64,000 nt of DNA from Rhizobiales bacterium Y(2018) (lineage in GTDB: Bacteria > Pseudomonadota > Alphaproteobacteria > Rhizobiales > Aestuariivirgaceae), in contig SCPD01000001.1 in the NCBI GenBank assembly GCA_005502925.1, positions 372,001 through 436,000 on the forward strand, read 5' to 3'. Positions 1,860 to 35,795 of the stretch are shown in pieces (position 1 is the stretch's first letter; each line of letters opens with the position of its first letter). A model generated the notes under the pieces. The model was not told the origin of the DNA and searched no databases. It saw nothing but the letters and a program-made list of their open reading frames with translations. The position numbers and the translations under genes were made by a program.

Positions 1860-2182
1860 CTCCTGATTAGTTACGACCAGTCGTATTCAACCCATGAGCT
1901 CGTGCAGCGATATGAATATGGGATGAGCCACTTCGCTCCATAGCCACCAGATTAGGAGCACAATCGGCGCGATGACGCCGGTTGCAGCAATAAAACCCAT
2001 AGTAAAAGCTTGGCGCCTCCCGGCTCAGCGATCTTTCACGTGCGGCCAAAACCCTGGCTCCCCATTCAAGCTAGACAAAAGTAAATCGGTGGAAAACGCT
2101 TCCCATGACACGTTTTGTCACCTCGTTTAGCTAAAGATAGATTACCTTACGAAATGTTTGCCTTTATAAGACAGAAGAGTTG
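1860..2182. other. Intergenic region before the five-gene operon
   Basis: This stretch of about 320 bases separates the ClpP-like gene from the nuclease-helicase operon and must hold that operon's promoter if it is transcribed alone. The last 80 bases before 2183 are AT-rich, and a purine-rich AGAAGAG lies just before the start. I cannot assign -35/-10 boxes with confidence. The minus strand carries a 37-codon frame, described separately. Nothing else is evident. Confidence 0.5.
1887..2000 (-). CDS. Possible 37-aa single-pass membrane peptide
   Basis: ATG at 2000 to TGA at 1887 gives a 37-residue frame. It is strongly hydrophobic in its first half (ATGVIAPIVLLIWWLW) and ends in HELMG, so it looks like one membrane helix with a short polar tail. 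A GGGAGG lies about 15 bases upstream, farther than is usual for a ribosome-binding site. Small membrane peptides are common in defence islands, but a hydrophobic frame of this length can arise by chance. No homology is claimed. Confidence 0.2.
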   Translation of the reverse strand: MGFIAATGVIAPIVLLIWWLWSEVAHPIFISLHELMG

Positions 2183-4837
2183 ATGCATCAACGACACACA
2201 GTGGTTGTCCACGGCCGGTTGGCAATGCGCGAGCATCGCCTTTCCGCTGCCCGGAAGCGGTTGCACGGCCTACAGATAATGACTTTTGAGCATCTCGCGG
2301 CGCGGTTGGCAGGAGGCCTCTCTCGTCCAGTCGATGAAGGGACGTTAAGAGCTGCGATTCGGACTGTCTTGCCGAAAGTTGAGCTGGGTGAGCTCGACGG
2401 CCTGAAGTCGCTGCCTGGCATGGTGACAGCGGTTGTTGATACTTTGCGCAAGGCATGGCGCGCTGGTATCGATTTGCAAGCTCGCGCGCCTGAACATCCA
2501 CGTTTAGCGTCGATTGCGAAGCTCGAAGCGTCCGTGCTCGCTGCCATGCCACCGGCTATGATGCGTCCCACTGACCTCGTGGCGACGGCCATTGGCCGCC
2601 TAAATTATGTCGAGGCTTTGTTTGGGCCGATTGAGATTGTCGGGATTACTGAACTTTCGCCTTGCTGGCGACCACTTCTGCACGCGATCGCAGAGCGAGT
2701 GCCAGTTCGTTGGACTGCCGGGCCGCGACGGATTCCTGAATGGCTCCATAGAGGCGTTATCGACGTAGAACGCGGCCAGCCCCATAAGCCGGAAATTGTT
2801 GCCGTTAGCACCGCCACCACGTATCATGAGGCGATCGAAGCTATGCGGTGGGCGCGGCAGCTCGTTGCGTCAGGTAAGGCCGACCCGGCCGAGATCGCCA
2901 TCGCATCGGTTACGCCGGCGGATTACGACGACCATTTTCTCGCCTTGCGGGCCGACAGCAATTTCGACCTCCATTTCGTTCATGGCGTCAAAATCACGGC
3001 CTGTAGGGAAGGTCAGGCAGCCGCAGCCTTGGCGGATATCCTGGTTCGGGGATTATCCCAGACCCGGATGCGGCGCTTGGCGGCACTGTTGGCAGTCTAT
3101 TCTGGCCCGTTTCAGGAGCTGCCCGAAGGCTGGATGCGCATACTGCCAGCGGATGCCCCGCTGGCGTCCGCCCAAGCATGGACGCATCTGCTTGACCGCC
3201 TGACGGCCGCGGATTGGCCCGATGAGGTCGATCATGGTTCGGCGCTACGCGAGATCATCTTGTTACTGTCACAGGGCGTCGCGGCGGCCGAGGCCGTTGG
3301 CGAAAATCTGCTGCGCGGCAGAAGCTTGGCCATCTGGCGGAAAGCACTCGTTGTTGGATCGGTTGCATCGGTTGACCAGACATTGGAGACGCTGAAGCAG
3401 GATGATGGCGTGGACGCCTGCGTCTCAATCGCTTGGATGCCGGCGAGTGCGTTAGCAGCATCACCGCGCCGCTTCGCTCGTCTTCTCGGCCTCAATTCCT
3501 CCCGCTGGCCACGCGGCATTTCAGAGGATCGCCTCCTCTCCGATCACATCATCTCTAGTGCTGAGCTTGACCCACTCCCGGTGGGCTCGGCTGACCGGCG
3601 GGACTTCGCGACAATCCTCGCCACCAGTGAACGCCAGGTTGTCCTATCGCGGGCACGGCGCGACAGCGATGGTCGGCTTCTTGGCCGCAGCACCTTGCTG
3701 CAGGGGCCGCCCGACGAGATCTATCTGCGGCGCAACCGAGTGCCCGAACATGCCTTCAGCGAGACCGATCGGATGATGGCCAGGCCGCAGGAATTCCGCG
3801 CCTTGCCGCAAGCCGTCGCGGCGGCTACTTGCTGGCGTAACTGGCTTCGGGAGGAGCTCACGCCGCATGACGGGGTTGTCCGGGCCGATCATCCTGTTGT
3901 GCGGGCAATTCTGGAGCGCACCCAATCGGCTAGCTCTCTCCGCCAGCTCCTGCGAAACCCCCTCGGCTTCGTCTGGCACTATGGCTTGCGGTGGCGAGCA
4001 CCTGAAAGCACCAATGATCCGCTCGTCCTCGATCCGCTCGAGATGGGTGATCTTGTTCACCTCACTCTTGATCGGACGTTGCGCATACTGGAAGTCAACG
4101 GTGGACTTGCCGCTGCGACGGCGCTGCAGATCGCTGATGCCGTCGCTGGCGCGACTGCTCAAGTTACAGAGATCTGGGCGACGGAGCGCGCCGTGCCGCC
4201 GCGCGTGATTTGGCGACGAACGCTCGATGAAACGCGCCAACTCAGCAGGCGTGCGCTCACATTTGGCGATGAACGGCTGCCTGGCACCCGAGCCTTTGGC
4301 GAGGTGCCGTTCGGCGGAGCAGTGCCCAAATCCGACGTTGCACCACCCTGGATCGCTGCTGCCAGCGTCCAAATTCCCGAATCTGGCTTCCGGATCGCTG
4401 GTTACATAGATCGGCTTGATATCTCCGCCGATGGACGTCGTGCTCTGGTGCGCGACTATAAGACCGGTAAAAAGCCTGCGGACAACATTGTCCTGGACGG
4501 CGGTAGGGAGCTGCAGCGCTGCCTCTACGCGTTCGCCGCCAAGGCTATGCTGGGCGACGAGGTCGAAATCAGCGCTTCGCTCCTTTATCCACGCGACGAG
4601 ATCGATCTGCGACTTGACAATCCCGAAGCGACCCTCGTGGAGATCGCAGGTTACTTGCGCGCCGCACGCGCCAACCTTCTTTCCGGCGGAGCCGTGCTCG
4701 GGATCGATACGGGCGGCTCTTATGACGACCTCGCTCTTGCACTGCCCGCGAACGCAGCTGCTACCTACTGCAAACGCAAGGCTGCCGCGGCGACCACCCG
4801 TCTGGGCGACGCCACACAGGTCTGGGACGCTCCGTGA
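2183..4837 (+). CDS. PD-(D/E)XK nuclease, AddB/RecB-exonuclease-like (operon gene 1)
   Basis: This 884-aa protein resembles the AddB/COG2887 group. Its C-terminus carries a PD-(D/E)XK nuclease core at about residues 735-800: GYIDRLDI (metal-binding Asp) followed by VRDYKTGKKP (D-x-K), then a helix with RCLYAF. The N-terminal two-thirds resembles a degenerate superfamily 1 helicase fold, but no Walker A motif is visible, as in subunits that are structural partners of AddA. Start: TTG at 2180 and ATG at 2183 are adjacent, and I chose the ATG behind AGAAGAG. The stop overlaps the next gene (TGATG), so the pair is probably co-translated. The expected role is single-strand cleavage next to the UvrD-type motor encoded downstream. 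Confidence 0.8.
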   Translation: MHQRHTVVVHGRLAMREHRLSAARKRLHGLQIMTFEHLAARLAGGLSRPVDEGTLRAAIRTVLPKVELGELDGLKSLPGMVTAVVDTLRKAWRAGIDLQARAPEHPRLASIAKLEASVLAAMPPAMMRPTDLVATAIGRLNYVEALFGPIEIVGITELSPCWRPLLHAIAERVPVRWTAGPRRIPEWLHRGVIDVERGQPHKPEIVAVSTATTYHEAIEAMRWARQLVASGKADPAEIAIASVTPADYDDHFLALRADSNFDLHFVHGVKITACREGQAAAALADILVRGLSQTRMRRLAALLAVYSGPFQELPEGWMRILPADAPLASAQAWTHLLDRLTAADWPDEVDHGSALREIILLLSQGVAAAEAVGENLLRGRSLAIWRKALVVGSVASVDQTLETLKQDDGVDACVSIAWMPASALAASPRRFARLLGLNSSRWPRGISEDRLLSDHIISSAELDPLPVGSADRRDFATILATSERQVVLSRARRDSDGRLLGRSTLLQGPPDEIYLRRNRVPEHAFSETDRMMARPQEFRALPQAVAAATCWRNWLREELTPHDGVVRADHPVVRAILERTQSASSLRQLLRNPLGFVWHYGLRWRAPESTNDPLVLDPLEMGDLVHLTLDRTLRILEVNGGLAAATALQIADAVAGATAQVTEIWATERAVPPRVIWRRTLDETRQLSRRALTFGDERLPGTRAFGEVPFGGAVPKSDVAPPWIAAASVQIPESGFRIAGYIDRLDISADGRRALVRDYKTGKKPADNIVLDGGRELQRCLYAFAAKAMLGDEVEISASLLYPRDEIDLRLDNPEATLVEIAGYLRAARANLLSGGAVLGIDTGGSYDDLALALPANAAATYCKRKAAAATTRLGDATQVWDAP

Positions 4838-7800
4838 TGAATGCGCCGGTTACACTGCTCGCCGATGACGAGGCTCGACGCTCCGCCATTGCGATCCACA
4901 ATCGTTCATTTTTGGTGGAGGCCGGGGCCGGCTCCGGAAAGACCGCCGTCATGGCCGGCCGCATCGCTCTGATGCTAGCCGAGGGCATAGCACCTAAGAT
5001 GGTGGCCGCGGTCACCTTTACCGAACTCGCCGCAAGCGAGCTTCTCATCCGTATTCGGGAGTTCGTTGGTGAGTTGGCCGCGGGCCGCGTCCCCGCTGAG
5101 CTTCGAGTCGCCTTGCCCCATGGCCTTTCCGACACTCAACAACGCCATCTCTCGGCCGTCAGCATGTCCATCGACGACATTACCTGCTCGACCATCCACG
5201 GATTCTGTCAGCGTTTAATCAAGCCATATCCGGTCGAAGCTGACATAGATCCCGGTGCGGTAGTGATGGACCGCAATCAGGCGGATCTTGCTTTTACCGA
5301 GACCATTGAAAGCTGGCTTCGAGAAGAGCTTGCTGACGATACCGACGACCTCCTTGCCGAACTAGTCCTACAGGATCCCGACGAGACCGTCGGATTGATC
5401 CACAGGATTCTCGCTCACCTTCGCAACCATCGTGCGCTTACCGCCAACGCATCAGAAGTGCTGGCCGTCTTTGTTAATTCTTTCTGCCAGGCGGCAAGTG
5501 ACTTCGCGTCCTTTGTTCGCAACGCCGTCGTCAACGAGCCCGAAACCACCGATGTCGCGATGGGGTTCTCGGAAATGGCGAAGACGTTGGTGAATATACT
5601 GCCCGCGGAAGAGCCTGCTGATCTTGTCCAGTTACTACTCACACGACCCCGTCCCGATCTCTGCACAGCTACCGGTGACTTTCGGTCATACAAGAAGAAG
5701 GGAAAATGGCGCAACGCGGCCAAGATCACGGGTCTAGCCAAGGCCGACGGCGAACGTTTGAACGCTGCCGCTGAACGTCACCACGCCGCCTGTTGCGCGG
5801 CGTGGACGACGCTTTTGCAGGCTACTGCCACCCGGACTCTCGACGATCTCATCCGTCTCGTGCAGCCGGCGATGGATCGGTTTCGCGACTACAAGCGTTC
5901 CGCTGCGCTTCTGGACTTCGACGATCTCATCTTCGCCGCGCGCACCCTACTGCGCGATCATGAGGTGGTGCGGCGCGCACTCGCAGCCCGCTTCACTCAT
6001 GTCCTTGTTGACGAGTTCCAGGACACTGACCCATTACAGACCGAGATCTTTTGGCGTCTTTGCGGCGACCCTCCGTCGGGAGCCGACAATGCCGACTGGG
6101 GTAAGTTCCATATCCGTCCCGGCGCGTTGTTCCTTGTCGGCGACCCTAAACAAGCAATCTATCGCTTCCGCGGTGCGGACGTTACCACCTATATCCAAGC
6201 GCGGAATGCGCTTCTTGCGCAGGCACCAGATAGCATTCTGACCATCTCGACTAATTTCCGGTCATGCGAACCAATCCTGCGCTATGTGAACGATCGTTTT
6301 GAACTCCTGCTGTCGGCCGAGAATGGCCAGCCAGGATTCACAGCGCTGTATCCTTTCCATCCTCCACGTGACGAAGGGCTTTGCGTCATGGCCCTCGACA
6401 TCAAGGTGGCCGACGCGGACGGCAAGGCTTCAGCCGAGCGTCAGCGGGATGGTGAAGCGGAGGCGGTCGCTGATATGTGCGCGCGGCTGATTGGGAGTGA
6501 AGCAATAGTCGATCGCAAGACCGGTGAACGCCGCGCATGCAGGCCCGGTGATATAGCACTCCTAGCACCGACCGGAAGCGACCTGTGGCGTTACGAGGAT
6601 GCTCTGGAGCAGCGCGGCATTCCGGTCGCGACCCAAGCCGGCAAGGGCTTGTTTCGCCGTCAGGAGATCCAGGACCTAATTGCGCTCACTCGTGTCCTCT
6701 CCGACCGCCGCGACACGCTCGCGCTAGGCGCGCTGTTGCGCGGGCCATTAGTCGGCCTGACCGAGGAGGAACTGCTCGACATCGTTTGGACGCTGCCGCG
6801 GCCCGAAGACGCCCCGGACGCCCTGCCACGATTGGACCTTGGCGTCGCGCCAGAAGCCATCTTCCACTCCCATGCCCGTGATGTGATCGAGAAACTCCAG
6901 GCATTGCGCCGCAAGATCAATGCCACGACGCCACACGACCTGTTGTCGCAAGCGATCGACGTGCTACGTGTGCGGCCTACCCTTCTTCACCGCCACCGTG
7001 ATCAAGCTGAACGTGCTCTGGCCAACGTTGACCTGTATCTTAGCCTCTCCCGCGCCTATGGAGTCCGCGGCCTAGGCGCCTTCGCAGAAGCAATGTCGGC
7101 CGCATGGACCAACGAGTCGCGGGCCGTTGAAGGTCGCCCCGACGCCCAGGAAGAGGCGGTCGCGCTCTACACCATGCATGCCGCTAAAGGGCTGGAATGG
7201 CCGATCGTTGTGCCGATCAACACCATGACTCAGATCATCGCACCTGAAAGCGCCGTCACCGAGCGTGACAGCGGCCGATTCTATTGTCCAGTATTTGGCG
7301 TGAAGCCGACGGGATACGAAGCAGCGCGTCAGGCCGAGAAGGCTGAACTCGACCGCGAGCGCATCCGTCTCTGGTATGTCGCCGCCACGAGAGCGCGCGA
7401 ACTTTTGGTCCTGCCGCGGCTCGATGCCACCGCGAAGAGAACCGCTTGGATATCACTTCTCGATCTGTCGCTTGAAAAGCTGCCGGCGCTCGACCTTAGC
7501 CAGTCTCCACTCGAGCTCGGGGTTGGCACAGGAGCTGCGGAGAATAGGCAGACACGCGATGTTTTCGCTGCCGAAGCGGCGGAGATCGCCGAGCGTCAAC
7601 AGCGCATCGTTTGGGTGGCACCGAGTCGCGATGAAGGTCAGACGAACCCGACATTGCGTGCGGAGATGTCGGAGATCCTGACGCCAGATGTCAACGGCGC
7701 GCAGGTGGAAGACGGCACTATCCCGGCGATTCAGGGCGGTCGTGAGCGCGGAGCCATTCTACATAAGCTGATTGAGGAGGTTCTCACCGGCGAAACAGCC

Positions 7801-8244
7801 GAGAGGGAGGAGGTTCTCGTCGCGCGCGCCGAAGCCCTAATCCAGGCAGTTGGACGCGCAGTCGCCAAAGACCCTGCGCATGGGCTCGTGCCTGCCGAGC
7901 TCGCTGCCTGCGTCGTTCGTGCTCTCGCACTGCCGGAAATTATTGCCCTTAGGCCCAGTCTGTTGCCGGAGTTTCCTGTATACGCCTCAAGTTTGACCGA
8001 CGAACATGAAGAAGCGACCGCCGGCATTGCCGATGCAATCGTCTTCGATCCGGACGGAAAGCCTCAGGTAGTGGTGGATTGGAAGAGTGATGTCTCACCC
8101 TCTCCAGAGATACTTGAGCATTACCGCGCTCAGGTCCGCAGCTATCTCGAGGTAACCAAGTCCGCGCTCGGGCTCATTGTCTTGATGACCACCGGACAAA
8201 TTATCAGCGTTACACGACCTTTGTGCAATTCCACCGCGAACTGA
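4837..8244 (+). CDS. UvrD/AddA-like helicase-nuclease (operon gene 2)
   Basis: This 1135-aa superfamily 1A helicase has a C-terminal nuclease domain. Visible motifs are Walker A GAGSGKT (about 30-36), Walker B/motif II LVDEFQDTDP (about 390), motif III LVGDPKQAIYRFRGAD (about 430), motif V YTMHAAKGLEW (about 785) and motif VI LWYVAATRARELL (about 845). Near the C-terminus, GIADAIVFDPDGK followed by VVDWKSD forms a PD-(D/E)XK core (about 1063-1090). The length and layout match AddA. The ATG at 4837 shares a base with the upstream stop (a GTG at 4834 is possible). Pairing with an AddB-like partner suggests an ATP-driven DNA end-processing complex. The position in a defence cluster suggests attack on foreign DNA rather than housekeeping recombination. 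Confidence 0.85.
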   Translation: MNAPVTLLADDEARRSAIAIHNRSFLVEAGAGSGKTAVMAGRIALMLAEGIAPKMVAAVTFTELAASELLIRIREFVGELAAGRVPAELRVALPHGLSDTQQRHLSAVSMSIDDITCSTIHGFCQRLIKPYPVEADIDPGAVVMDRNQADLAFTETIESWLREELADDTDDLLAELVLQDPDETVGLIHRILAHLRNHRALTANASEVLAVFVNSFCQAASDFASFVRNAVVNEPETTDVAMGFSEMAKTLVNILPAEEPADLVQLLLTRPRPDLCTATGDFRSYKKKGKWRNAAKITGLAKADGERLNAAAERHHAACCAAWTTLLQATATRTLDDLIRLVQPAMDRFRDYKRSAALLDFDDLIFAARTLLRDHEVVRRALAARFTHVLVDEFQDTDPLQTEIFWRLCGDPPSGADNADWGKFHIRPGALFLVGDPKQAIYRFRGADVTTYIQARNALLAQAPDSILTISTNFRSCEPILRYVNDRFELLLSAENGQPGFTALYPFHPPRDEGLCVMALDIKVADADGKASAERQRDGEAEAVADMCARLIGSEAIVDRKTGERRACRPGDIALLAPTGSDLWRYEDALEQRGIPVATQAGKGLFRRQEIQDLIALTRVLSDRRDTLALGALLRGPLVGLTEEELLDIVWTLPRPEDAPDALPRLDLGVAPEAIFHSHARDVIEKLQALRRKINATTPHDLLSQAIDVLRVRPTLLHRHRDQAERALANVDLYLSLSRAYGVRGLGAFAEAMSAAWTNESRAVEGRPDAQEEAVALYTMHAAKGLEWPIVVPINTMTQIIAPESAVTERDSGRFYCPVFGVKPTGYEAARQAEKAELDRERIRLWYVAATRARELLVLPRLDATAKRTAWISLLDLSLEKLPALDLSQSPLELGVGTGAAENRQTRDVFAAEAAEIAERQQRIVWVAPSRDEGQTNPTLRAEMSEILTPDVNGAQVEDGTIPAIQGGRERGAILHKLIEEVLTGETAEREEVLVARAEALIQAVGRAVAKDPAHGLVPAELAACVVRALALPEIIALRPSLLPEFPVYASSLTDEHEEATAGIADAIVFDPDGKPQVVVDWKSDVSPSPEILEHYRAQVRSYLEVTKSALGLIVLMTTGQIISVTRPLCNSTAN

Positions 8245-8254
8245 AGGCGTAAGC

Positions 8255-9430
8255 ATGTCATCTCTTGCATGGATAGATTTCGACGAAGCCGAGCGGCAGC
8301 GCGCGCAGCGGATCATGGCATTCTTTCAAGAGCGCGAAAGCCGTGACGAACTGGGACTCGGCGCAATTCGTGATTCCATTTCAGATCATCTTTTTCCAGG
8401 GACGAGCACAATCCAAACTCGACTCCGATACATGCTGTTTATTCCATGGCTGTTTCAATTGCTGGAAGGATCGGATGCCACGGAAAGTCAGGTTCGCACG
8501 AAGGCCCGCGATCTCGAGACTGGGCTGGCCGATGCACTCAAAGCCGGAGGAGAGTCAAAGGGCATAATCGGGCGCGAAGCGGGCCGCGACCTTCTGAGAC
8601 TGCCTAGTTCGGTCTACTGGGCTGGCCTCGGCTCATGGGGTATCCGGCTCTTCCCCGGGTCAATCGAGAGCTTGCTTGTTTCGCATCATATTCTCGGACG
8701 ATCACGCGCATCACTGGGCAATGAGGACGGATCCGCTTCCCTAGCGCTATCCATTTGGACCAAAGCGCTTCCGCCTTCACCCAAAGACCTGCTCAAGCGC
8801 GCTGTATTTCGCCTAACTGTGGATGAGGCTCAGTTCATTGTCGATCGACTCATCGCCAATCATCCCAATTCACTTCTTACGATGTTGGCACGCGATCACA
8901 TCTACGATGAATGCGGCCATATTTGGGAGCACCCCCGCCTTTCTCTGTTTCCACCTCAAATCCGTCGACTTCTCAACCATGCTGATATTTTCTCTCAAGT
9001 CATGCACGGGGCCTCCCTGCTTTACAATCTTTCACTAAGCGAACTACGAAAAAATGCTGACTGGTCCGCTGATTATCGAGAGCAGATCCAAAACTGGAAG
9101 TCCGCGCTCAATCTGTCTGATATTCGCAATTGGTCGCTAGACGACTTTTGGGACACCGTTGCCCATCCAGCTCATACTATTCGTCCGGGAGCGAAGCAAT
9201 TCGTGAAGCAGTGGGTTCAACTTGTTAACACCCAAACGGAAACGTTTGAACCCACCTCCTCCGCCGGAACTATAGTGGAAGGACGCGAACGCCACCTCAA
9301 GACAACACAATCCCGTTACATAAATCGCGCCGCACGCGATAACTGGCGGGGCGCATCTGGGGTCGACCGCTTAGCTTTTCGCTGGAACCAAGCGAAATCA
9401 TACCTTTTGGACCTCGCCAATGTTGAATAA
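8255..9430 (+). CDS. DUF6361-family protein (operon gene 3)
   Basis: This 391-aa protein has the conserved N-terminus I associate with DUF6361: WIDFDEAERQR, then DELGLGAIRD (about 31-40) and FPGTSTIQTR followed by a hydrophobic LFIPWLF (about 47-66). The biochemical function of this family is unknown to me. No catalytic motif or membrane segment stands out. It lies 10 bases after the helicase-nuclease stop and overlaps the PLD gene by 11 bases, so it is an integral operon member. In other genomes this family tends to sit beside PLD-fold and helicase genes, so I infer a DNA-sensing or scaffolding role. That is an inference from context, not from sequence. Confidence 0.75.
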   Translation: MSSLAWIDFDEAERQRAQRIMAFFQERESRDELGLGAIRDSISDHLFPGTSTIQTRLRYMLFIPWLFQLLEGSDATESQVRTKARDLETGLADALKAGGESKGIIGREAGRDLLRLPSSVYWAGLGSWGIRLFPGSIESLLVSHHILGRSRASLGNEDGSASLALSIWTKALPPSPKDLLKRAVFRLTVDEAQFIVDRLIANHPNSLLTMLARDHIYDECGHIWEHPRLSLFPPQIRRLLNHADIFSQVMHGASLLYNLSLSELRKNADWSADYREQIQNWKSALNLSDIRNWSLDDFWDTVAHPAHTIRPGAKQFVKQWVQLVNTQTETFEPTSSAGTIVEGRERHLKTTQSRYINRAARDNWRGASGVDRLAFRWNQAKSYLLDLANVE

Positions 9431-11276
9431 ATTCAGCTTAGATCCTGACACTCGTATACTTTATGGAGCGAACTTGCAGCCACCGGCTGGTTATGTGTTT
9501 GACGCTGGGATCGCAACGACTTTCTCCCTCGACTTCGAAACAGCACTCGCTGTGCCCGTTAGCCTAGCGCTCTTCGCCGCCGAGAATCGAGATGAGATTC
9601 TCTTGCATCCGCTAGCGTTGCTCGAAGCTGCTGAACGTGTCGCTGGCAGACTACTGGTTTTTACCGACGTAGGACGCATACATGCGCAAACGCGTCCTCA
9701 CTCGCGACTTTGCTCATTGCTCGAGCGGTTTATGGTCGAAGTTGCAGCGCCCAATGGCGGAGCCTTTCATCCTAAGATGTGGGCGCTTCGATATAGGTCA
9801 ACCCTTCTCAACGCGCCATTCCGTCTGCGTCTCGTGGTGATGTCTCGAAATATGACGCGAGATCGCTCGTGGGACACGGCGTTGACACTCGATGGAGTGG
9901 CCACCGGCCGATCGCGGTCCGTAAACCGCCCCATAGTCGAGCTAATTCGCGGTTTGCCAAATCTTTGGAACGCGGGACTTCCAGAAGGGTGTCGCCAATT
10001 AGTTGACGACCTCACTGAAGACCTTTCGCGCGCGGAATGGACGCTGCCTGATCCCTTTCAGGACATCACTTTCGCCGTGAATGGTCTAGGCAATCATCCG
10101 TGGAAACCGAAGAAATGTTCACGACTTGGAATTATATCGCCATTCTGCGATGACAAGGCGCTCTCGAAACTGGCGGACCTAGCGACTAAAGAGAAGCCAA
10201 TTCTAGTTGGCCGTCCGGATGAGCTTATGTCGGTGTCACCGTTGACACTCGGTCGATTCAGCCGAGTGGCGGTGATGGATGAACTGGCGGCCACAGAGGA
10301 TGGTGAAGAGCTCGACCCAACGTCATTGCAGGGCCTTCATGCAAAGGCATTTATTGCAGAAATAGGCTGGGACACCGCGATTACCGTGGGTTCGGCCAAT
10401 GCTACACAACCTGCACTACTATCCAGCAAAAACATAGAGCTACTCGCCACAATATCTGGCAAAAGCTCGCGCGTCGGCAGTATCGAGCAGATCTTGGGCG
10501 AAAAGGGATTTGGTCGATTGACACATCCCTTTATCCCGAACGAGGTTCTTGCCCCGGATGCAGCAAACCGCGCAGCAGAGAAGCGACTTGACGTGGCCCG
10601 TCGCGAGATTTGCCTCGGCGGATTGACACTCCGTTGTGAACGCGAGACGTCGGCTGAGGGATCCGTAGTTCCTTGGCGCGTCTGGTTGATGCCTTCCGTC
10701 TCACTACCGCTCGCTGGCATTGCCGGTTTGCGCGTTTGGCTGGTCACTCGGGGCGAACCTCACGCTAAGCACGCACTCGAGTCACTGCGACTTGGACAGC
10801 CCGTTGATCTTGACCTGGTGCCGCTTGCCGATCTCACTCGGTTCCTTGCTCTTGAACTCACTGACGTTGGAGGCAACCTAAAAACCCTATTCAGCACCGG
10901 CCTCGATCTGCAAGGGCTACCGTCGGAAAGAAATGCAGCGATCTTAAGATCTATAATTGAAAACAAGGAAGCCTTCTTCCGATATTTGCGGTTGCTTCTG
11001 TCGGAACAAGGAGATCCTTTCGCTTTCGCAGTTTCTGCACAGGAAGGTTCTGGCTACGGAGCGTGGCAGAAATCGAACGACGAGTCGCCCCTCCTCGAGG
11101 AATTAGTGCGTGAATTCTGCCGGGGTGGCGATCAACTCCGGGCAATCGAGCGCTTAATCGATCGCTTGGATTCTTTGGACCTGGATAAATCAGATCCGAT
11201 TCCAGCCGACTTCAGAGCCCTTTGGCATACATTTCAGATCGCGCTTAAGGCCCAGGGAAGCACGCATGCAAAATGA
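9420..11276 (+). CDS. Phospholipase D-fold nuclease-like protein (operon gene 4)
   Basis: This 618-aa protein carries two HxK half-sites typical of the PLD superfamily. The first is FHPKMWAL (His117, Lys119) followed about 20 residues later by VVMSRNMT. The second is LHAKAFIAE (His307, Lys309) followed by VGSANAT. Two such halves make one active site. In bacterial defence loci the fold usually cuts nucleic acid. The position after the second Lys where many members have Asp holds Glu. There is no signal peptide. The ATG overlaps the DUF6361 stop by 11 bases, and the gene overlaps the helicase start by 11 bases. The PLD-plus-helicase pairing recalls DISARM (drmC) and Mokosh, but the partners here differ. 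Confidence 0.8.
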   Translation: MLNKFSLDPDTRILYGANLQPPAGYVFDAGIATTFSLDFETALAVPVSLALFAAENRDEILLHPLALLEAAERVAGRLLVFTDVGRIHAQTRPHSRLCSLLERFMVEVAAPNGGAFHPKMWALRYRSTLLNAPFRLRLVVMSRNMTRDRSWDTALTLDGVATGRSRSVNRPIVELIRGLPNLWNAGLPEGCRQLVDDLTEDLSRAEWTLPDPFQDITFAVNGLGNHPWKPKKCSRLGIISPFCDDKALSKLADLATKEKPILVGRPDELMSVSPLTLGRFSRVAVMDELAATEDGEELDPTSLQGLHAKAFIAEIGWDTAITVGSANATQPALLSSKNIELLATISGKSSRVGSIEQILGEKGFGRLTHPFIPNEVLAPDAANRAAEKRLDVARREICLGGLTLRCERETSAEGSVVPWRVWLMPSVSLPLAGIAGLRVWLVTRGEPHAKHALESLRLGQPVDLDLVPLADLTRFLALELTDVGGNLKTLFSTGLDLQGLPSERNAAILRSIIENKEAFFRYLRLLLSEQGDPFAFAVSAQEGSGYGAWQKSNDESPLLEELVREFCRGGDQLRAIERLIDRLDSLDLDKSDPIPADFRALWHTFQIALKAQGSTHAK

Positions 11277-14200
11277 TGATTTTAGCGCCGCAGTAGCATT
11301 AGCACCGCTTAAGGCCTTTCAACGCCGCACCGTTGATTATGTATTCGACCGCCTTTATGGCACAGAGGACCCAGTGCTCCGTTTTCTTGTGGCCGATGAG
11401 GTCGGTCTTGGAAAGACTCTGGTAGCGCGTGGTGTCATTGCGCGAACCATTGAACGCCTCTGGAACACACCCAAGCGGATTGATATCCTATATATCTGTT
11501 CAAATCAGGCGATCGCGGCTCAAAATCTCAATCGCCTCAATGTGCTTGGTCGCCGAGAGCTTGCCCTCCCCACCCGTATGACTTTGATCCCGTTACAATT
11601 GCGCGACCGCGAAGGTCTTGACGCTAAGATCAACTTCATAAGCCTTACACCTGGAACTACATTTGAGCTTCATTCGGCCACCGGCGTGACGCAAGAACGT
11701 GCCTTCTTGTTGCATCTACTAAAGGATCTTGTCACCTACCCACGCGGCCTTCACAACCTCCTCCAGGTCTCAGCAGGGGTGGATGCGTGGAATAACGCTG
11801 TCAACGACCTAGACCTGGAAGGGATCGACAAGGAGATCACCGAACGCTTCCGTCGAAGTGTGCAGGCCGATCAAGATTTGTTTCAAGAATTGGAGCGCCT
11901 CTGCGAGATATTTCCTCGTCGCAGGGACAAGTATCCGCCCGAAATGACCAAGCCGAGAAACAAGCTGGTCGCGAGGCTACGCGCAAAACTTTCCCACGCT
12001 TGCGTTGACGCACTTGAGCCCGACTTGATCATTATGGATGAATTCCAGCGCTTTCGCGATCTTCTACACGGCAACGGCGATGCAGCGATCCTGGCTAGGG
12101 AGATATTGGACTATGTCGATAGCGATGGCCACGCCGCCCGAACGCTGCTTCTGTCCGCAACTCCCTATCGAATGCTGACGCTCGCCGGCGACGATGCTGA
12201 AGCTGGCGATCATCACAAGGATTTCCTGGAGACGGTCAGCTTTCTATACGGAAGAGACAAGGGACCCGACATAGCCGCTGCGCTAGCACGTGAAATGCGC
12301 GCCTTTCGCAGTTTCCTTCATGGACTGCCCCTTTCCCAACCCGCTGCAATCGAAGCGCGACGGACAGTCGAACAGCGTCTGCGCGGTGTAATTGCTCGCA
12401 CGGAGCGGATCAACACCACGGTTCGACGGGATTCAATGCTGGTCGAAGTGCCCCTCGACGTCTCGATCGCAGCCGATGATCTTCTTCAGGCCGCAGTAGT
12501 CGCCAAAGTGGCGCGGGTCCTTGATGCGCCGGAAATCGTCGAATATTGGAAGTCGGCACCATACCTCCTTAACTTTATGCGACACTACAAGCTAAAGGAA
12601 TTACTGGAGCAACGTATCAACGACACCAATCCCGATCTCTGCGAAGCAATACAGGCAGCGCGGTCAGCAATGCTCAATCGCAAGACACTCAATCTCTATT
12701 CGCCATTGGAACCTGCCAATGGTCGCATGCGAGCTGTTATCAAGGAGATCTTTGACGCTGGTCTGGAAAAGCACCTCTGGATACCGCCAGCCTTGCCATA
12801 CTATGGAGACGACCGACACGTTAAGCCCTTGACCAAGGGATTGATATTTTCCTCCTGGTCCATGGTTCCAGATGCGGTTGCTGCGCTACTCACATACGAA
12901 GCAGAACGCCGAATGGGCGCTGGTGATTCTGGCCAGCGATACTTTGACCAGCAACGCGCACGACCACTTCAGTTTGGACACGATCAAGGTCGATTGGCCG
13001 GGCTGAGAGCTCTGTTATTGATCTATCCCTCGCCGAGGTTGGCAGAAATTGCTGATCCACTCGCAATCTTTGCCGAAAAAAGCCGCACACTTTCACAAGA
13101 AGACATACGTGACGCTATCGGAAAGCGCCTTGATCAGGTGATACATTTAATTGAAACCGGGTCTCAAACAGGATCCGACGGAAGCATGGTTGAATGGGCG
13201 CTCCCAGCGGCCATTGACGCAATGTCTGGTTCGCGTGCCGGCGAATGGTTATCTTCTTCAGGTGGATTGTCTTCGCTTGCTAGCGAGGATGGCTTCCAAG
13301 AACATGTGGCCGAGCTTAACAAGGCAAGAACGGCACGAGATTTTGGCTCGGTCACTGACGATGTCCGGTCTCTCCTTGTTGATATTGCGCTGGGCAGCCC
13401 TGCCATTTGTGCTCTTCGTGCGATACGTCGGATTGCACCGGAGCTTGCATGGGACGATCCACACTTACTCGGTGCCGCGGCGCAGGTTGCCTGGGCTTTT
13501 CGAACACTGTTCAATCAGCATGATGCTGTAGCTCTACTACGACGTGGGGCAGATGACCGCTATTGGCATCGTGTTTTGACCTATAGCGTTGATCACAATC
13601 TCCAAGCAGTGCTTGACGAGTATGCTCACTACTTAGTCGAAGCTGAAGGGCTGATGACACGCACACCTGAGGAACGTGTGGCCGGCGTTGCAAAGGCAAT
13701 GGCCACCGCCCTATCTATTAGGCCTTCTCAGATTGACGTTGACGAACCACGAGTGAAAAGTGGTGCGTTAGCAATACGAAAGTTCCAGATGCGCGGGCGC
13801 TTCGCCATGCGCCTTGCTGATTATCGCGATGAGGAAGGCGCAGTTGCTCGCCTGGGCGCGGTCAGAGACGCGTTCAATTCACCGTTCCGACCATTTGTCC
13901 TGGCTACCACATCAATCGGTCAAGAGGGGCTGGACTTTCACCCTTATTGCTACCGGATTTACCACTGGAATTTGCCGGGAAATCCGGTGGAACTTGAGCA
14001 AAGAGAGGGCCGGATTCATCGTTTCAAGAGCCATGCGATCCGTCTCAATCTGGCCGAGCGCCAAGGCCTAACGATACGCGGAAGTGGGCAGGCGCCCGAC
14101 GACCCATGGAAGTTTATGTTCGATCGGGCGCGATCCGAAGCAATAGTTGATAGCGATATTATTCCTTACTGGATCTATGAAGGTTCCGTGCAAGTTGAGC

Positions 14201-14445
14201 GCCGGGTCCCTCTTCTGCCGTTCAGCCGTGAAGTAGCGAGATTGGACTGGCTGAAGCGTAGCCTAGTTATATACAGACTTGCTTTTGGCCAGCCACGTCA
14301 AGATGACCTGCTCCAATACCTGCATAGTTTAGCTGAATTGAAACTGGACCCTGCGGTCCTAGCAAGTCTTCAGATCTCGCTTGAACCCCATCAGGGTCGA
14401 CGTGAATATCGCGGAAGGCCTTCCTCACTCACTCACCTAGCCTAG
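11266..14445 (+). CDS. SNF2-like superfamily 2 helicase (operon gene 5)
   Basis: This 1059-aa protein is a superfamily 2 motor. Motif I is ADEVGLGKT (ends at about residue 51), motif II is IIMDEFQRF (about 256-264, DEFQ rather than DEAH), motif III is LLLSATPYRM (about 295-304), and the C-terminal RecA lobe carries SIGQEGLDFHPYC and QREGRIHRF (about 890-920). Between the lobes is a long insertion (about 330-830) that I cannot assign. It lacks the DUF1998 partner and the helicase layout typical of DISARM. It is the last gene of the overlapping operon. The likely job is ATP-driven translocation or remodelling of invading DNA for the PLD and PD-(D/E)XK nucleases. Confidence 0.85.
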   Translation: MQNDDFSAAVALAPLKAFQRRTVDYVFDRLYGTEDPVLRFLVADEVGLGKTLVARGVIARTIERLWNTPKRIDILYICSNQAIAAQNLNRLNVLGRRELALPTRMTLIPLQLRDREGLDAKINFISLTPGTTFELHSATGVTQERAFLLHLLKDLVTYPRGLHNLLQVSAGVDAWNNAVNDLDLEGIDKEITERFRRSVQADQDLFQELERLCEIFPRRRDKYPPEMTKPRNKLVARLRAKLSHACVDALEPDLIIMDEFQRFRDLLHGNGDAAILAREILDYVDSDGHAARTLLLSATPYRMLTLAGDDAEAGDHHKDFLETVSFLYGRDKGPDIAAALAREMRAFRSFLHGLPLSQPAAIEARRTVEQRLRGVIARTERINTTVRRDSMLVEVPLDVSIAADDLLQAAVVAKVARVLDAPEIVEYWKSAPYLLNFMRHYKLKELLEQRINDTNPDLCEAIQAARSAMLNRKTLNLYSPLEPANGRMRAVIKEIFDAGLEKHLWIPPALPYYGDDRHVKPLTKGLIFSSWSMVPDAVAALLTYEAERRMGAGDSGQRYFDQQRARPLQFGHDQGRLAGLRALLLIYPSPRLAEIADPLAIFAEKSRTLSQEDIRDAIGKRLDQVIHLIETGSQTGSDGSMVEWALPAAIDAMSGSRAGEWLSSSGGLSSLASEDGFQEHVAELNKARTARDFGSVTDDVRSLLVDIALGSPAICALRAIRRIAPELAWDDPHLLGAAAQVAWAFRTLFNQHDAVALLRRGADDRYWHRVLTYSVDHNLQAVLDEYAHYLVEAEGLMTRTPEERVAGVAKAMATALSIRPSQIDVDEPRVKSGALAIRKFQMRGRFAMRLADYRDEEGAVARLGAVRDAFNSPFRPFVLATTSIGQEGLDFHPYCYRIYHWNLPGNPVELEQREGRIHRFKSHAIRLNLAERQGLTIRGSGQAPDDPWKFMFDRARSEAIVDSDIIPYWIYEGSVQVERRVPLLPFSREVARLDWLKRSLVIYRLAFGQPRQDDLLQYLHSLAELKLDPAVLASLQISLEPHQGRREYRGRPSSLTHLA

Positions 14446-15103: not shown

Positions 15104-16303
15104 ATGGAAGCAGTCATGCAGCTCAATGACCTAAAGCTACGTCATTCTCATGTTTATCTTGGCGGCATACGATTCATTCACACCGCCGACTGGCAGATCG
15201 GCAAACCGTTCCGAACGTTCGGCGAGCGCGAGCCAATGTTGCGGCAGGCAAGGCTTGCCGCAATCGAGAACATTGGCAGGCTGGCAATGGTGGAGAGTGC
15301 TCAACACGTGCTGATTGCCGGCGACTTCTACGATACCGAATCGCCTACACAGAAGACCTTGCTGGAGCCTCTGGAGCGTATGCGGCAATTTCCGAATGTC
15401 GCCTGGCATGTTATTTCCGGTAATCACGATCCACACCGAGGCAACGGTCTCTGGGATCGCGTGCAATCCACTAGCCTCCCGCCGAATGTTCATTTGCACC
15501 TCGCGCCCGAGTCGGTTGCGCTTGGCGACAATGCTGTGCTGCTGCCTGCACCCATGCGACGCAAGAGTGAGGCTTCTGACCTGACCCAATGGATGAGCGA
15601 CGCCCCCACCCCACCTGGCCTCATCCGCATCGGGCTCGCCCATGGCTCGGTCACGGGCTTCGATGTAGGCGGTGAAGCTAATAATCCCATCGCACCGGAC
15701 CGCGCCAGCCGCGCAGGTCTAGACTATCTAGCCCTCGGTGATTGGCATCGCACCATGCAAATCAATGACAGGACGTGGTATGCGGGAACCCCGGAGGCCG
15801 ACAGGTTCAACAGCCAGGAATTGGGCCAAGCGCTGATCGTCGACATTCCCGCCTCCGGAGCTCCGCCTTTGGTAACGCCAGCAACCACCGGCACTTATCG
15901 CTGGCTCACGATGACCGAAGACCTCCGCGACACGCCCGAACTGGAAGGTTTGGAAAACCGGCTTCGGGCGCTGCAAGACTCTACGACAATGGTCCTGAAG
16001 CTCTCCATCATGGGTGCCCTGCCGATCAGCGGGCGTGCTGAACTCGAGCGCCGTCTCAGTGGAGTTGAAGCCTCGATGTTCCATCTGGCAACCGACCTTA
16101 ACGCCCTACGGGTGCGGCCGACGACTGGCGACCTTGAAGCTATTGATTTTGGTGGAGTGCTGCGCGAGGCAGCCGATACGTTAAAGGCCCTTTCCGAGGA
16201 TAGCAACCGCACGGGGGCGGAGCGCTTACGGGCCGAGGAAGCCCTGATCCAGCTCTTCCTGATGACCACCGGCAACACCAGCATGATAGGAACCGCAAGT
16301 TGA
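15104..16303 (+). CDS. Mre11/SbcD-like (YhaO-type) metallophosphoesterase
   Basis: This 399-aa calcineurin-fold DNA nuclease has its metal-site motifs in order: HTADWQIG (Asp29, with Gln31 where SbcD has His), GDFYD (73-77), GNHD (106-109), LAHGS (His180) and GDWH (212-215). Only the first-motif His is replaced, a variant I associate with a YhaO-like branch. An ATG at 15116 is an alternative start, and no strong ribosome-binding site decides. Its stop overlaps the TTG start of the ATPase gene. The pair should form a nuclease-ATPase complex acting on DNA ends or hairpins. The location between defence operons suggests an anti-invader function. Confidence 0.8.
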   Translation: MEAVMQLNDLKLRHSHVYLGGIRFIHTADWQIGKPFRTFGEREPMLRQARLAAIENIGRLAMVESAQHVLIAGDFYDTESPTQKTLLEPLERMRQFPNVAWHVISGNHDPHRGNGLWDRVQSTSLPPNVHLHLAPESVALGDNAVLLPAPMRRKSEASDLTQWMSDAPTPPGLIRIGLAHGSVTGFDVGGEANNPIAPDRASRAGLDYLALGDWHRTMQINDRTWYAGTPEADRFNSQELGQALIVDIPASGAPPLVTPATTGTYRWLTMTEDLRDTPELEGLENRLRALQDSTTMVLKLSIMGALPISGRAELERRLSGVEASMFHLATDLNALRVRPTTGDLEAIDFGGVLREAADTLKALSEDSNRTGAERLRAEEALIQLFLMTTGNTSMIGTAS

Positions 16304-18972
16304 GACTCACAAACGTTGAGATCGATGGCGTCGGTCGCTTCGGAACTCCCGCTCGCATCGAGGGCTTGGAAGCCGGCGTCAACATTCTGGCCGCCGGAAA
16401 CGAGGCGGGAAAATCCACGTTCTTCCGGGCTATCCGCACTTGCCTGTTCGAACGGCATGGATCCAGAAACCGCGACGTGATGGCGCTCGCCACCGATGGC
16501 TTGTCGCTTCCCGTTACGATCAAAATCAGCTTCGAACGTGGCGGACAATCCTACGAAATAAGCAAAACCTTCTTAAAGAGCACGTCGGCGAGCCTGCGCC
16601 GCGGCGGCGTGGAGATTGCCCGCAACACTGCGGCTGACGAGGAGCTGTGGAATCTTCTCGGAATAGCCCATGGCAGCAGCGGTAGCCGGTCGGTCGACGA
16701 GGCGGCCTTCGGCATTCTCTGGGTTGACCAAGGCAAGTCTTTCGCCGCGCCGGACCCCTCAGAGGCGGCGACTTCCGCCTTGAATGCGGCAATTCAGCAG
16801 GAGGTCGGAATGCTGGTTGGCGGTGAGCGCGCCCGGCAGGTCCTAGGCAGCTTGTCGGCTGAACTCGCCAAGCTCGCTACACGCACCGGCAAGCCCAAGA
16901 CTGGCAGTCCGTTGGCCGAGGCCTTGGAACAATCAGAGGTTATCGCTCAATCTCTCAGGGAGGCTAAGGAGCGACTTGAGCTACTTGACAGCAGTATGGA
17001 GGAGCTTGCGAAACTCCGCAGCGAACGCACGATCCTAACTGCCCCGGCAGATCTGGCCAAACTGCGGTCCGATCTTGAAGATGCGCAGAGACTATTTGAT
17101 GCTGGGGAGCAAGCAGCCGCGGCTCTTCGCATCTTCGAATCCGACGAGCGCCAGACCGCAACGGCGCTCGGTTCCCAGGTGACGCAGCTCGAGTCCCTGA
17201 TGGAGCATATCCAGCGCATTGACAGGAACCGTGAGCGCAGCGCGAAACTCGCTGGTGAACTCAGCCCCTTAAAGGCGGAGGAAACCGATGCCAGGGAAAA
17301 AGTCGCAGCCTCCTACGTTCGTATCGGCGATATCGACAAGCAGCTCCAAAGCGTCGAAGCGGAAGAGAGCCGGCTCCGGCGGATTGCAGCCGTCATGCAG
17401 AAATCATCAGCTCGCGCCGCCCTTGAGAGCCGGCTGAACGCTTTTCGGGACTACGAAGCACGACTCGCCCACACTGAAGCAGGCCTCAGGGTTAACAGCG
17501 TCGATGCAGCGGCCGTCTCCGCGCTGGACGAGATCGAACGGGACGCTGACAAGCTCACGGCCCGGCTTGAGGCCAGCGCAGCGCAGCTGAGCGTCGAGCG
17601 GCACGGATCCTCAGTTGTCACCATTAACGGTCAGCGACTCGAATCCAAGGCAGACCGTGCAATTACGGAACCGTTGACGATTACCGTGTCTGACGACGTC
17701 ACCATCAGGATCACGCCCGCGAATGAGAACCTTGCAGCAACGCAGAAGCAGCGAGACGCCCTTCAGCGGCGCCTACAACAGCTTCTTGCCAAGCACAGCG
17801 TCAACACGTCGGCCCAGCTGCGCAACGCCCGTGTCGCCCGTAACCTTTTGGAAGAAGCACAGCGTGGACTGACCGCCGAGAAATCGGCCTTGGGCGCAAA
17901 AGACCCAGTGTCGGCTGAGATTGCAGACATCGCGGCGGAGTTATCAAGGATAGAGAGTGAAATAGAGCGGATCCATATCGAATACGGATCTGATGCACTT
18001 CTCTCCCCCGAAAAGATCGGGCTGCGGCTGGTCGGCCTTCAACAATCGCGCGATACACTCCAGCCAGAACGCAGCCAGTGCGAGGCTATCATCAAGGACC
18101 GGAATGCCGTTATCTCGAAGATTGCCGATAGCCGCGGCACTTTGCAGGGCCAGATGACCGAGATCACCAACCAGCTCAAGATCGATCTCACTACTATCCC
18201 TGACGAACAGCGGACTGAAACGATGCGGGCCGCGGAGGATAAGAAAGCCAGGTTGTCGGAAGACCAGCGGATAGCAGCGCTCGCGCTCGCCGAAAAGCGG
18301 CGGTCGACACCGGATGCTGAAGAGCTTGAGCGCCGACGCAATCGCGTTAGCCGGTTGAAGGTTGTTGTTCACAATCGCGAGTCACAGATCTCCGCGCTGG
18401 CCCAGCGCATCGCCAATCTCGAAGGTCAGATCATATCCGCTGGCGGCGATGGCCTTGGCGAACGCGTGGCCAACTTGGGGGACCAGTTAGAAATTATCAA
18501 TGCGGAGGCTGCCCGCCAGAACGCGAAGGTTGAAACATTAAGATTGCTCCATGAGATTATCTTCGGGAGCTACGAGAAGCGACGTGAACAGCTCAATTCA
18601 CCCTTGCGACGCCACCTGAAGCCATTCCTGAACGATGTTTTCCCCCAGTCGGAGATAGAGATTGGCGACGGGTTCGCGGTTACCGGCCTGCGCCGCAATG
18701 GGCCTTGCAGCGAGCATTTCGATCGACTTTCGGCCGGCACCAAGGAACAGATCGCCGTCCTGGTCCGCCTCGCCATGGGCGCCATGATCTGCGAACGCGG
18801 TGAGGAAGTGCCCATCATCCTCGATGATGCCCTCGTCTTTTCCGATGACGTTCGTATCGAGCAGATGTTCGACGCTCTCAATCGAGCCGGTAAGAATCAA
18901 CAGGTGATCGTCTTCACTTGCCGCGCCAGATCCTTTGCTTCTCTCGGGGGCCGGCAACTCCAAATCGGCTAA
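16300..18972 (+). CDS. Rad50/SbcC/YhaN-like coiled-coil ATPase
   Basis: This 890-aa SMC-type ATPase has an N-terminal Walker A GNEAGKST (33-40), a Q-loop-like WVDQGKSF (about 145), long coiled coils, an ABC signature LSAGTKEQ (about 811) and Walker B PIILDDALVFSDD (about 837). No CxxC zinc hook is visible. Instead a short beta-rich segment (VVTINGQR... TITVSDDVTIRI, about 438-472) interrupts the coils. It uses a TTG start overlapping the upstream stop (TTGA), so translation is coupled to the nuclease gene. Size and signature resemble YhaN more than E. coli SbcC. It should clamp DNA and gate the partner nuclease through ATP binding. Confidence 0.8.
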   Translation: MRLTNVEIDGVGRFGTPARIEGLEAGVNILAAGNEAGKSTFFRAIRTCLFERHGSRNRDVMALATDGLSLPVTIKISFERGGQSYEISKTFLKSTSASLRRGGVEIARNTAADEELWNLLGIAHGSSGSRSVDEAAFGILWVDQGKSFAAPDPSEAATSALNAAIQQEVGMLVGGERARQVLGSLSAELAKLATRTGKPKTGSPLAEALEQSEVIAQSLREAKERLELLDSSMEELAKLRSERTILTAPADLAKLRSDLEDAQRLFDAGEQAAAALRIFESDERQTATALGSQVTQLESLMEHIQRIDRNRERSAKLAGELSPLKAEETDAREKVAASYVRIGDIDKQLQSVEAEESRLRRIAAVMQKSSARAALESRLNAFRDYEARLAHTEAGLRVNSVDAAAVSALDEIERDADKLTARLEASAAQLSVERHGSSVVTINGQRLESKADRAITEPLTITVSDDVTIRITPANENLAATQKQRDALQRRLQQLLAKHSVNTSAQLRNARVARNLLEEAQRGLTAEKSALGAKDPVSAEIADIAAELSRIESEIERIHIEYGSDALLSPEKIGLRLVGLQQSRDTLQPERSQCEAIIKDRNAVISKIADSRGTLQGQMTEITNQLKIDLTTIPDEQRTETMRAAEDKKARLSEDQRIAALALAEKRRSTPDAEELERRRNRVSRLKVVVHNRESQISALAQRIANLEGQIISAGGDGLGERVANLGDQLEIINAEAARQNAKVETLRLLHEIIFGSYEKRREQLNSPLRRHLKPFLNDVFPQSEIEIGDGFAVTGLRRNGPCSEHFDRLSAGTKEQIAVLVRLAMGAMICERGEEVPIILDDALVFSDDVRIEQMFDALNRAGKNQQVIVFTCRARSFASLGGRQLQIG

Positions 18973-23087: not shown

Positions 23088-23106
23088 TAGCCACGGCCCG
23101 TTGACA

Positions 23107-33360: not shown

Positions 33361-33439
33361 GACTACTCACCGGGTTGACAGGGCTCTTTCCCAGGACTAG
33401 AACAGAAAGGGAACATACAGTCCAGAGGTTTTGCGTAAA

Positions 33440-34114: not shown

Positions 34115-34128
34115 TGGGTGCGCCGGAT

Positions 34129-34875: not shown

Positions 34876-34877
34876 GA

Positions 34878-35609: not shown

Positions 35610-35701
35610 GGTTTCCCCGTCCCAAATTTATGACCACAAAACCGCTACAAAAACGCGCTTCGCTCCGGTCTAACTAATTTATTTTATTGAGAAAAATAGA
35701 C

Positions 35702-35795
35702 TGGCGGAGACGGAGGGATTCGAACCCTCGATACGCCTTTACAAACGTATAACGGTTTAGCAAACCGCCGCCTTCAGCCGCTCGGCCACGTCTCC
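35702..35795 (-). tRNA. tRNA-Ser(GCU)
   Basis: On the minus strand the acceptor arms GGAGACG/CGTCTCC, the anticodon arm CGGTTTGCTAAACCG (anticodon GCT), the long variable arm expected for serine tRNAs, the T loop GGGTTCGAATCCC, and an encoded CCA at 35702-35704 are all visible. The 3' end points toward the accessory half, which is the usual orientation when an island integrates into a tRNA gene. Confidence 0.95.

Follow-up and report, generated by a model that had tools for sequence, protein, structure and literature searches.

A predicted Azaca anti-phage operon preceded by an AddAB-type helicase-nuclease pair that probably serves as a mobile cassette

AddAB is a break-repair enzyme, and its AddB subunit carries an iron-sulphur cluster in the context of a CX2CX5C motif. 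Azaca (zacABC), an anti-phage system reportedly described by Millman et al. in 2022, comprises in PADLOC the three proteins ZacA, ZacB and ZacC. Passages of two papers tie ZacC (PMC12278908) and a PLD-like domain (PMC10952713) to Azaca, and a listing in a 2026 review gives both Azaca and Shango with mechanism unknown (PMC12926258). The window analyzed here is a stretch of 64,000 nucleotides from Rhizobiales bacterium Y(2018) (contig SCPD01000001.1, positions 372,001 to 436,000), in which the five genes at 2183-14445 are likeliest an operon for DNA defence. By profile and motif comparison the set splits in two, with the named system Azaca as genes 3 to 5 and an AddB-like/AddA-like pair as genes 1 and 2. 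We consider it somewhat probable that the locus is an Azaca system with a mobile AddAB-type helicase-nuclease cassette in front.

Five consecutive open reading frames (ORFs) on the + strand form one tight operon. The ORF of gene 1 (2180-4837) opens with TTG at 2180 and has an alternative ATG at 2183, the choice of start setting its overlap with gene 2 at 1 to 4 bases; 10 bases separate gene 2 from gene 3, and the overlaps of genes 3/4 and 4/5 are 11 bases each. A sequence-only reading of this stretch had described five coupled genes with overlaps or a 10-base gap throughout, and the ORFs and junctions bear this out; its picture of DNA-attacking enzymes in a coupled operon likewise agrees with the domains and intact motifs reported below. 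The genes are as follows:

2183 to 4837, + strand: gene 1, AddB-like subunit with a C-terminal PD-(D/E)XK nuclease (885 amino acids from the TTG at 2180; Pfam PDDEXK_1, AlphaFold and Foldseek)
4834 to 8244, + strand: gene 2, AddA-like subunit, a UvrD-family helicase with a C-terminal RecB-type nuclease (1136 amino acids, ATG at 4837; TIGR02784)
8255 to 9430, + strand: gene 3, predicted ZacA (DUF6361), Azaca subunit (PADLOC ZacA, PF19888)
9420 to 11276, + strand: gene 4, ZacB, predicted PLD-fold nuclease of Azaca with two HxK motifs (PADLOC ZacB)
11266 to 14445, + strand: gene 5, predicted ZacC, superfamily 2 helicase of Azaca (PADLOC ZacC)

Comparison with the PADLOC models identified genes 3 to 5 as ZacA (419.3 bits, residues 2-389), ZacB (541.6 bits, 6.9e-163, residues 7-612) and ZacC (1105.9 bits, residues 7-1041) of an already named system. 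All three proteins of Azaca are thus present at nearly full length, and they adjoin in the order zacA-zacB-zacC within one operon (8255-14445). Gene 3 also matches Pfam DUF6361 (PF19888; 298.9 bits, 7.2e-89) and gene 5 carries the Pfam domains DEAD and Helicase_C, while the Pfam scan of gene 4 gave no match. These assignments were further strengthened by conserved motifs: all 71 aligned rows of ZacB keep both HxK motifs and the N that follows each of them, and in ZacC motifs II and VI are invariant in 74 of 74 rows and the Walker A K is kept in 72 of 74. The predicted structure of ZacA is all-helical (mean predicted local distance difference test score, pLDDT, 85.8); a fold search with it against the PDB gave no match at E<=0.001, and PDB sequence searches with ZacA and with the AddB-like protein gave nothing better than E 0.79. 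The domains named from sequence alone, namely PD-(D/E)XK, UvrD/AddA-like, DUF6361 and a two-motif PLD fold, all held; the call of gene 5 as SNF2-like did not, its scores with the SNF2-like DrmD and DpdE models being about 40 bits, far behind ZacC. The proposal of a wholly undescribed five-gene system has to be given up for genes 3 to 5, and a better description of the set is a named system together with a mobile two-gene cassette, the latter also found with Shango and others. The locus differs from the PADLOC definition of Azaca in the AddB-like and AddA-like genes coupled in front of the three Zac genes.

The AddB-like protein matches a single Pfam domain, PDDEXK_1 (2.2e-19), and scores 30.5 bits against TIGR03623 (cut-off 299.6) and 20.9 bits against the NCBIfam AddB model (cut-off 486.5), which places it outside canonical AddB. 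A Foldseek search with its AlphaFold model returned AddB for all of the best five PDB chains (E 1e-12 to 1e-11, probability 1.00), followed by AdnA and RecC. The nuclease residues H627, D744, D759, K761 and Q779 are invariant in 40 of 40 rows, and a CX2CX5C motif, looked for in this protein, was not found. Its partner matches Pfam UvrD-helicase (1.5e-53) and AddA-type profiles along its whole length; against TIGR02784 (addA_alphas) it reaches 291.8 bits over residues 24-1107, below the cut-off of 860.75 and hence outside canonical AddA, and the best PDB match of a profile of its family is AddA (3u44, 2.7e-60). Walker A GKT, DExQ and motif VI are invariant in 45 of 45 rows, and the nuclease residues D1082, K1084 and D1086 are kept in all 43 rows that have letters there, the other two being gaps. 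At the superfamily level, the pair would therefore comprise one helicase and two predicted RecB-type nuclease domains with motifs intact, and the structural model points to an AddB fold in the partner. Genes 1 and 2 are an AddAB-type pair, not canonical AddAB. Like AddAB, AdnAB and RecBCD, they encode adjoining AddA-type (helicase and nuclease) and AddB-type (fold and nuclease) subunits with intact active-site residues; unlike them, the pair lies far below the curated cut-offs, lacks CX2CX5C in the AddB-like subunit, and occurs in defence loci as a second copy beside canonical addAB.

A role as the housekeeping enzyme was ruled out because a separate addAB exceeding both curated cut-offs (AddA 1195.2 bits, AddB 855.8 bits) sits at C22:115034-121317 of the same genome. 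The pair looks like a second, specialized copy of the cell's DNA-break-processing machine. All four same-genus genomes searched have matches to the AddA-like protein at only 25-42% identity and no close AddA-like gene. A phage origin of the pair was also rejected, with no AddB-like match in 50,697 phage records; in 29 viral-contig loci the similarity to the AddB-like protein covers only a stretch of about 70-100 residues in its nuclease domain (28-38% identity), and these loci were left unused. In PADLOC 2.0.0, no family matches the AddB-like protein, and the AddA-like protein matches 47 families, of which the best 25 are all generic UvrD-type (GajB, RTasHel); among the matches listed, no five-gene system joins AddB-like and AddA-like models with Zac proteins. 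Consequently, no named system among those searched corresponds to all five genes together. The defence-system search that the sequence-only reading had proposed as a check returns Azaca for genes 3 to 5.

Linkage of the pair to Azaca was examined in a ZacC scan of one genome from each of 84,980 species, which gave 249 relatives; the best 80 of the 249 were kept, corresponding to 79 distinct loci. Loci with at least 2.5 kb upstream of ZacA were eligible (L001-L007 were left out of the count, and L025 and L026 were both counted), those with ZacC identity of at least 55% were termed close (n = 39), and an AddA-like gene was sought within 4 kb. Among these best 80, an AddA-like gene stands upstream in 23 of the 39 close eligible loci and an AddB-like gene in 22 of 39. 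Further genes intervene in some loci: a ResIII-type helicase of about 1100 amino acids between AddA and zacA in L025, L026 and L047, and an SF1-type protein in L031 and L032; in L027 and L053 a relative of the ResIII-type helicase precedes zacA where the contigs end. Conserved gene order, for which the earlier reading had proposed a search across genomes, does occur in other genomes.

A sample of 397 genomes was drawn from the order of Xanthobacter (locus L012, genome G744, which served as centre), an order we take to be Hyphomicrobiales, and was chosen by neither gene except for the centre. Some AddB-like match occurs in 18 of these genomes, near full length at an identity of at least 60% in 11, and DUF6361 occurs in 12; both lie on one contig in 10 genomes, 1 has only the AddB-like gene, 2 have only DUF6361 and 384 have neither. 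Fisher's test gives p 3e-17, and 9e-16 once the centre G744, already known to carry both, is removed, the related genomes not being independent. Of the 10 genomes with both, 8 have DUF6361 after AddA in the same orientation (2 of those 8 behind a ResIII-type helicase, 1 as a ZacA remnant of 131 amino acids), and the other 2 have it 12-13 kb away on the opposite strand. Across 385 genomes of the window's class, DUF6361 was found in 7 and the AddB-like gene in 9, with both in 6 and on one contig in 3; in the seventh DUF6361 genome an AddA-like gene adjoins DUF6361 at the contig end. AddB-like matches occur in 5 of 398 genomes of the phylum, 3 of them at an identity of at least 65% (the window, G066 and G547); the contig of G547 agrees in length and place with that of G982. 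On plasmids, the AddB-like gene is present in 63 of 72,556 records and ZacA in 45, and 10 records have the two in one orientation with ZacA 3.4-3.5 kb past AddB. The pair is linked to Azaca beyond chance and is not a random neighbour. Two broken or distant pairs were also seen: an AddB/AddA-like pair broken in one of the 397 genomes (L204:5381-11373), and, outside the linkage counts, a distant pair (26% and 31% identity) downstream of zacC in Williamsia muralis (L066:15165-19224).

Evidence that the pair moves as a cassette comes from distances, trees and near-identical segments. AddA and AddB distances correlate with r 0.98 (18 loci), and those of AddA and ZacC with r 0.34 (21 loci). An AddB tree of 52 rows, a quick tree with long branches flagged, requires 13 or more switches between the four partner labels, below the mean of 24.9 obtained by shuffling, these labels not being exclusive, since L154 and L155 have Shango upstream and are labelled by the downstream helicase, and L193 is labelled Azaca though only a ZacA remnant is present. 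The ZacC tree (78 rows, 60 labelled) requires six gains or losses of the pair. Moreover, L018 (Azaca) and L199 (SIR2-HerA) share 6158 bp at 97% identity that ends about 28 bases past the AddA stop codon, and L154 and L163 share Shango and the pair at 95%, diverging 20-30 bases before the AddA stop, after which L154 has a ResIII-type helicase. These comparisons demonstrate, at the level of sequence, that the two genes of the cassette move together and change partners; the pair and the Zac genes are partly co-inherited and sometimes exchanged.

The pair does not belong to Azaca alone. Its neighbours were compared in a set of 59 loci that left out L112, L113, L115, L192, L194, L205 and L025 (copies of other loci) as well as L172, and that leans towards Azaca because keeping the best 80 of 249 ZacC relatives over-represents close kin; on plasmids, locus inspection covered 21 of the 63 records that have the AddB-like gene. 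Shango (sngABC) has no subunit in common with zacABC and is another host of the cassette. In L109 PADLOC SngA, SngB and SngC are followed by the AddB-like and AddA-like genes, and annotation and similarity place Shango before the pair in L154, L155, L158, L163 and L164, with SngC and AddB 2 bases apart in L154, L155 and L163 and 272 bases apart in L158, and with another gene between them in L164. BREX genes face the pair with a WYL gene between in L151, L153 and L195. Opposite the pair lie HmaA in L197 and L200, a DrmD-like helicase and a type III methylase in L199, and a type III methylase and an SNF2/HKD protein in L192. A methyltransferase and helicase, taken for type III restriction-modification, precede the pair in L156 and L157, with an AAA ATPase and an McrBC-type gene between in L156. 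In L152 and L162, multiubiquitin, ThiF and DUF6527 genes come before the pair and Zac genes of about 40% identity after it. This ubiquitin-like module (Multiubiquitin, ThiF-type E1, DUF6527) stands directly before the AddB-like gene at L152:8479-10821 and L162:8437-10776, with a further large UvrD helicase upstream. The plasmid locus L156 also has an annotated SOS response-associated peptidase after AddA.

Regulators of the WYL type, which accompany defence islands according to PMC9122601 and PMC9122589, recur beside the pair. In 24 of the 59 loci the gene immediately upstream is a WYL gene on the other strand; within L192-L201 a divergent WYL gene is next upstream in 9 of 10 and is near on the same strand in L193. 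No WYL gene adjoins AddB in the window. Upstream, where many relatives have the divergent regulator, a PAN-domain protein is encoded at 168-1859, and the gene of a WYL-WCX protein precedes the operon by 3.8 kb, beyond the edge of the window. After the AddA-like gene, a ResIII-type helicase of about 1113 amino acids occurs in 11 of the 59 loci, with or without Azaca and with weak PADLOC and NCBIfam matches only; it is possibly a third cassette gene. Examples are:

L026, 3503 to 6928: ResIII-type helicase
L047, 3582 to 6923: ResIII-type helicase
L107, 5407 to 8748: ResIII-type helicase
L151, 16050 to 19391: ResIII-type helicase

Our preferred account joins the two halves in one defence, building on the identities of the parts, active sites intact in both halves, co-orientation with tight spacing, and a cassette that moves as a unit and switches partners. 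Azaca would recognize invading DNA and cut or nick it, with ZacC moving on the DNA and ZacB cleaving; this cutting would make DNA ends on which a predicted AddA/AddB-like heterodimer may load, unwinding and digesting the invader, and a few cuts would be turned into its full destruction. The far divergence from housekeeping AddAB may let the pair escape phage proteins and Chi-like signals that restrain the host enzyme. To our knowledge, Shango and Hma have no nuclease subunit. For BREX, the abstract of PMC9122589 states that no such system appears to contain a nuclease. With BREX, Shango and Hma partners, the same cassette would supply the nuclease. More broadly, the chances seem to us about even that a mobile AddAB-type helicase-nuclease, often beside a WYL regulator, is an interchangeable DNA-destruction module for unrelated systems (Azaca, Shango, and BREX-, Hma- and type III methylase-linked loci), supplying or amplifying their nuclease step.

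Several observations weigh against this account. The pair is absent upstream of ZacA in 16 of the 39 close loci (the contigs of L027 and L053 among them end too early) and in all 21 distant eligible ones, so the pair is dispensable to the Azaca family at large. If two loci whose Zac set is divergent are excluded, r with ZacC rises to 0.58 (AddA) and 0.73 (AddB), which indicates partly joint inheritance of the two halves in the main lineages of Azaca; this fits cooperation and weakens the description of the pair as freely mobile. Confidence in the AddB-like model is modest (mean pLDDT 66.9, predicted template modelling score 0.42), and its TM-scores to the AddB chains are only about 0.33. Loading on ends, blindness to Chi and evasion of phage inhibitors are conjecture, and co-location in defence islands can come from shared mobility alone.

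In a serious rival account, which we rate as rather unlikely, the pair would act as an independent defence (or anti-plasmid) system landing near others in islands and not cooperating with Azaca. AddA and AddB do evolve as one unit, the divergent WYL gene of the 24 loci could be the pair's own control unit, and more distant pairs (36-44% identity) have no recognized in-line partner, for example L160 and L168-L170; on plasmids, pairs of about 36-40% identity likewise have no partner recognized directly in line. Against independence, the cassette often stands in line a few bases from its partner, as with the 2 bases between SngC and AddB or the 10 bases between AddA and ZacA in the window, and linkage to Azaca is near complete in the 397 genomes (10 of 11 and 10 of 12), although in 2 of 10 the Zac gene is 12-13 kb off and faces the other way. 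That the pair is instead an accessory repair enzyme, guarding the host or plasmid from breaks made by its own defence systems, we hold to be doubtful: AddAB itself repairs breaks, 39 of the 63 records of plasmids that encode an AddB-like protein are classed as conjugative and many neighbours are DNA-targeting systems, but canonical addAB is already present in the host and the AddB/AddA-like pair stays with defence loci. A simple Azaca system with a chance neighbour upstream is highly improbable in view of the co-occurrence in the 397 genomes (p 3e-17) and the same arrangement in 23 eligible genome loci and 10 plasmid records, even though zacABC is complete without the pair and none of the 21 distant eligible loci has it upstream.

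Other described systems share single parts with the operon. The best PADLOC match of the AddA-like protein is GajB of Gabija, also a UvrD-type helicase (125.7 bits), but GajB matches the helicase parts only, whereas the AddA-like protein has AddA-type length and a nuclease domain; no GajA was found among eight genes scanned, beyond a weak match of the SbcC-like protein at 16.4 bits. The likeness to DISARM (DrmD) and Dpd (DpdE) lies in the weak match of ZacC to their SNF2-like helicases, set against 1105.9 bits with the ZacC model, and Pfam scans of 13 genes around ZacC found no DUF1998. In the titles and abstract openings that our partial coverage of the literature comprised, no description was found of an AddAB-like pair with Azaca, Shango or BREX, and one may already be in print; the terms AddA, RecB, UvrD, Azaca and Shango do not occur in PMC12839542 and PMC9122601. 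The means by which Azaca, Shango and BREX destroy invading DNA are not clear from PMC12926258 and PMC9122589, and a shared exchangeable cassette offers a natural experiment, in which the same two genes stand beside different partners and partners of one kind occur both with the genes and without them. If the cooperative account is true, a core repair enzyme would have been copied into a defence effector, several defence systems would have a plug-in effector in common, and annotation tools could recognize the extended loci.

The operon lies in a putative island of 43 kb that would reach from a tyrosine integrase left of the window (PF00589, L172:12468-14306) to a tRNA-Ser gene (35702-35795), whose 3'-terminal 17 bases recur exactly at the start of the integrase ORF (C11:364503-364519), 43.2 kb away:

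35702 to 35718, no strand assigned: putative right end of the genomic island, 17 bases at the tRNA-Ser 3' end, exact repeat at C11:364503-364519

The G+C content is about 0.62 left of the island and 0.50-0.61 inside, with the AddB and AddA genes near the top of that range. Similarity to one same-genus genome sets in exactly at 35702, and to another at 35620, 82 bases inside the proposed island; no empty site was found, the 20 kb around the tRNA gene in two same-genus genomes matching the right flank only. Downstream of the operon, an SbcD-like metallophosphoesterase and an SbcC/SMC-like ATPase are encoded by overlapping genes (15104-18972), followed by type I restriction-modification genes (19648-26532), so that both modules named in the sequence-only reading are present and its defence-island setting was right. 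The SbcD-like/SbcC-like genes were considered as part of the unit and rejected, with no match at E 1e-5 in 86 loci (the later plasmid loci lie outside this count), and they look like a separate pair. Relatives of the SbcC/SMC-like ATPase occur on 116 plasmid records, 67 of the 116 from Rhizobium, and several of ten listed adjoin a 'DNA repair exonuclease'. At the right end of the putative island, 33431-35609 holds SRAP (SOS-associated peptidase), HEPN AbiU2 and DUF4145 genes.

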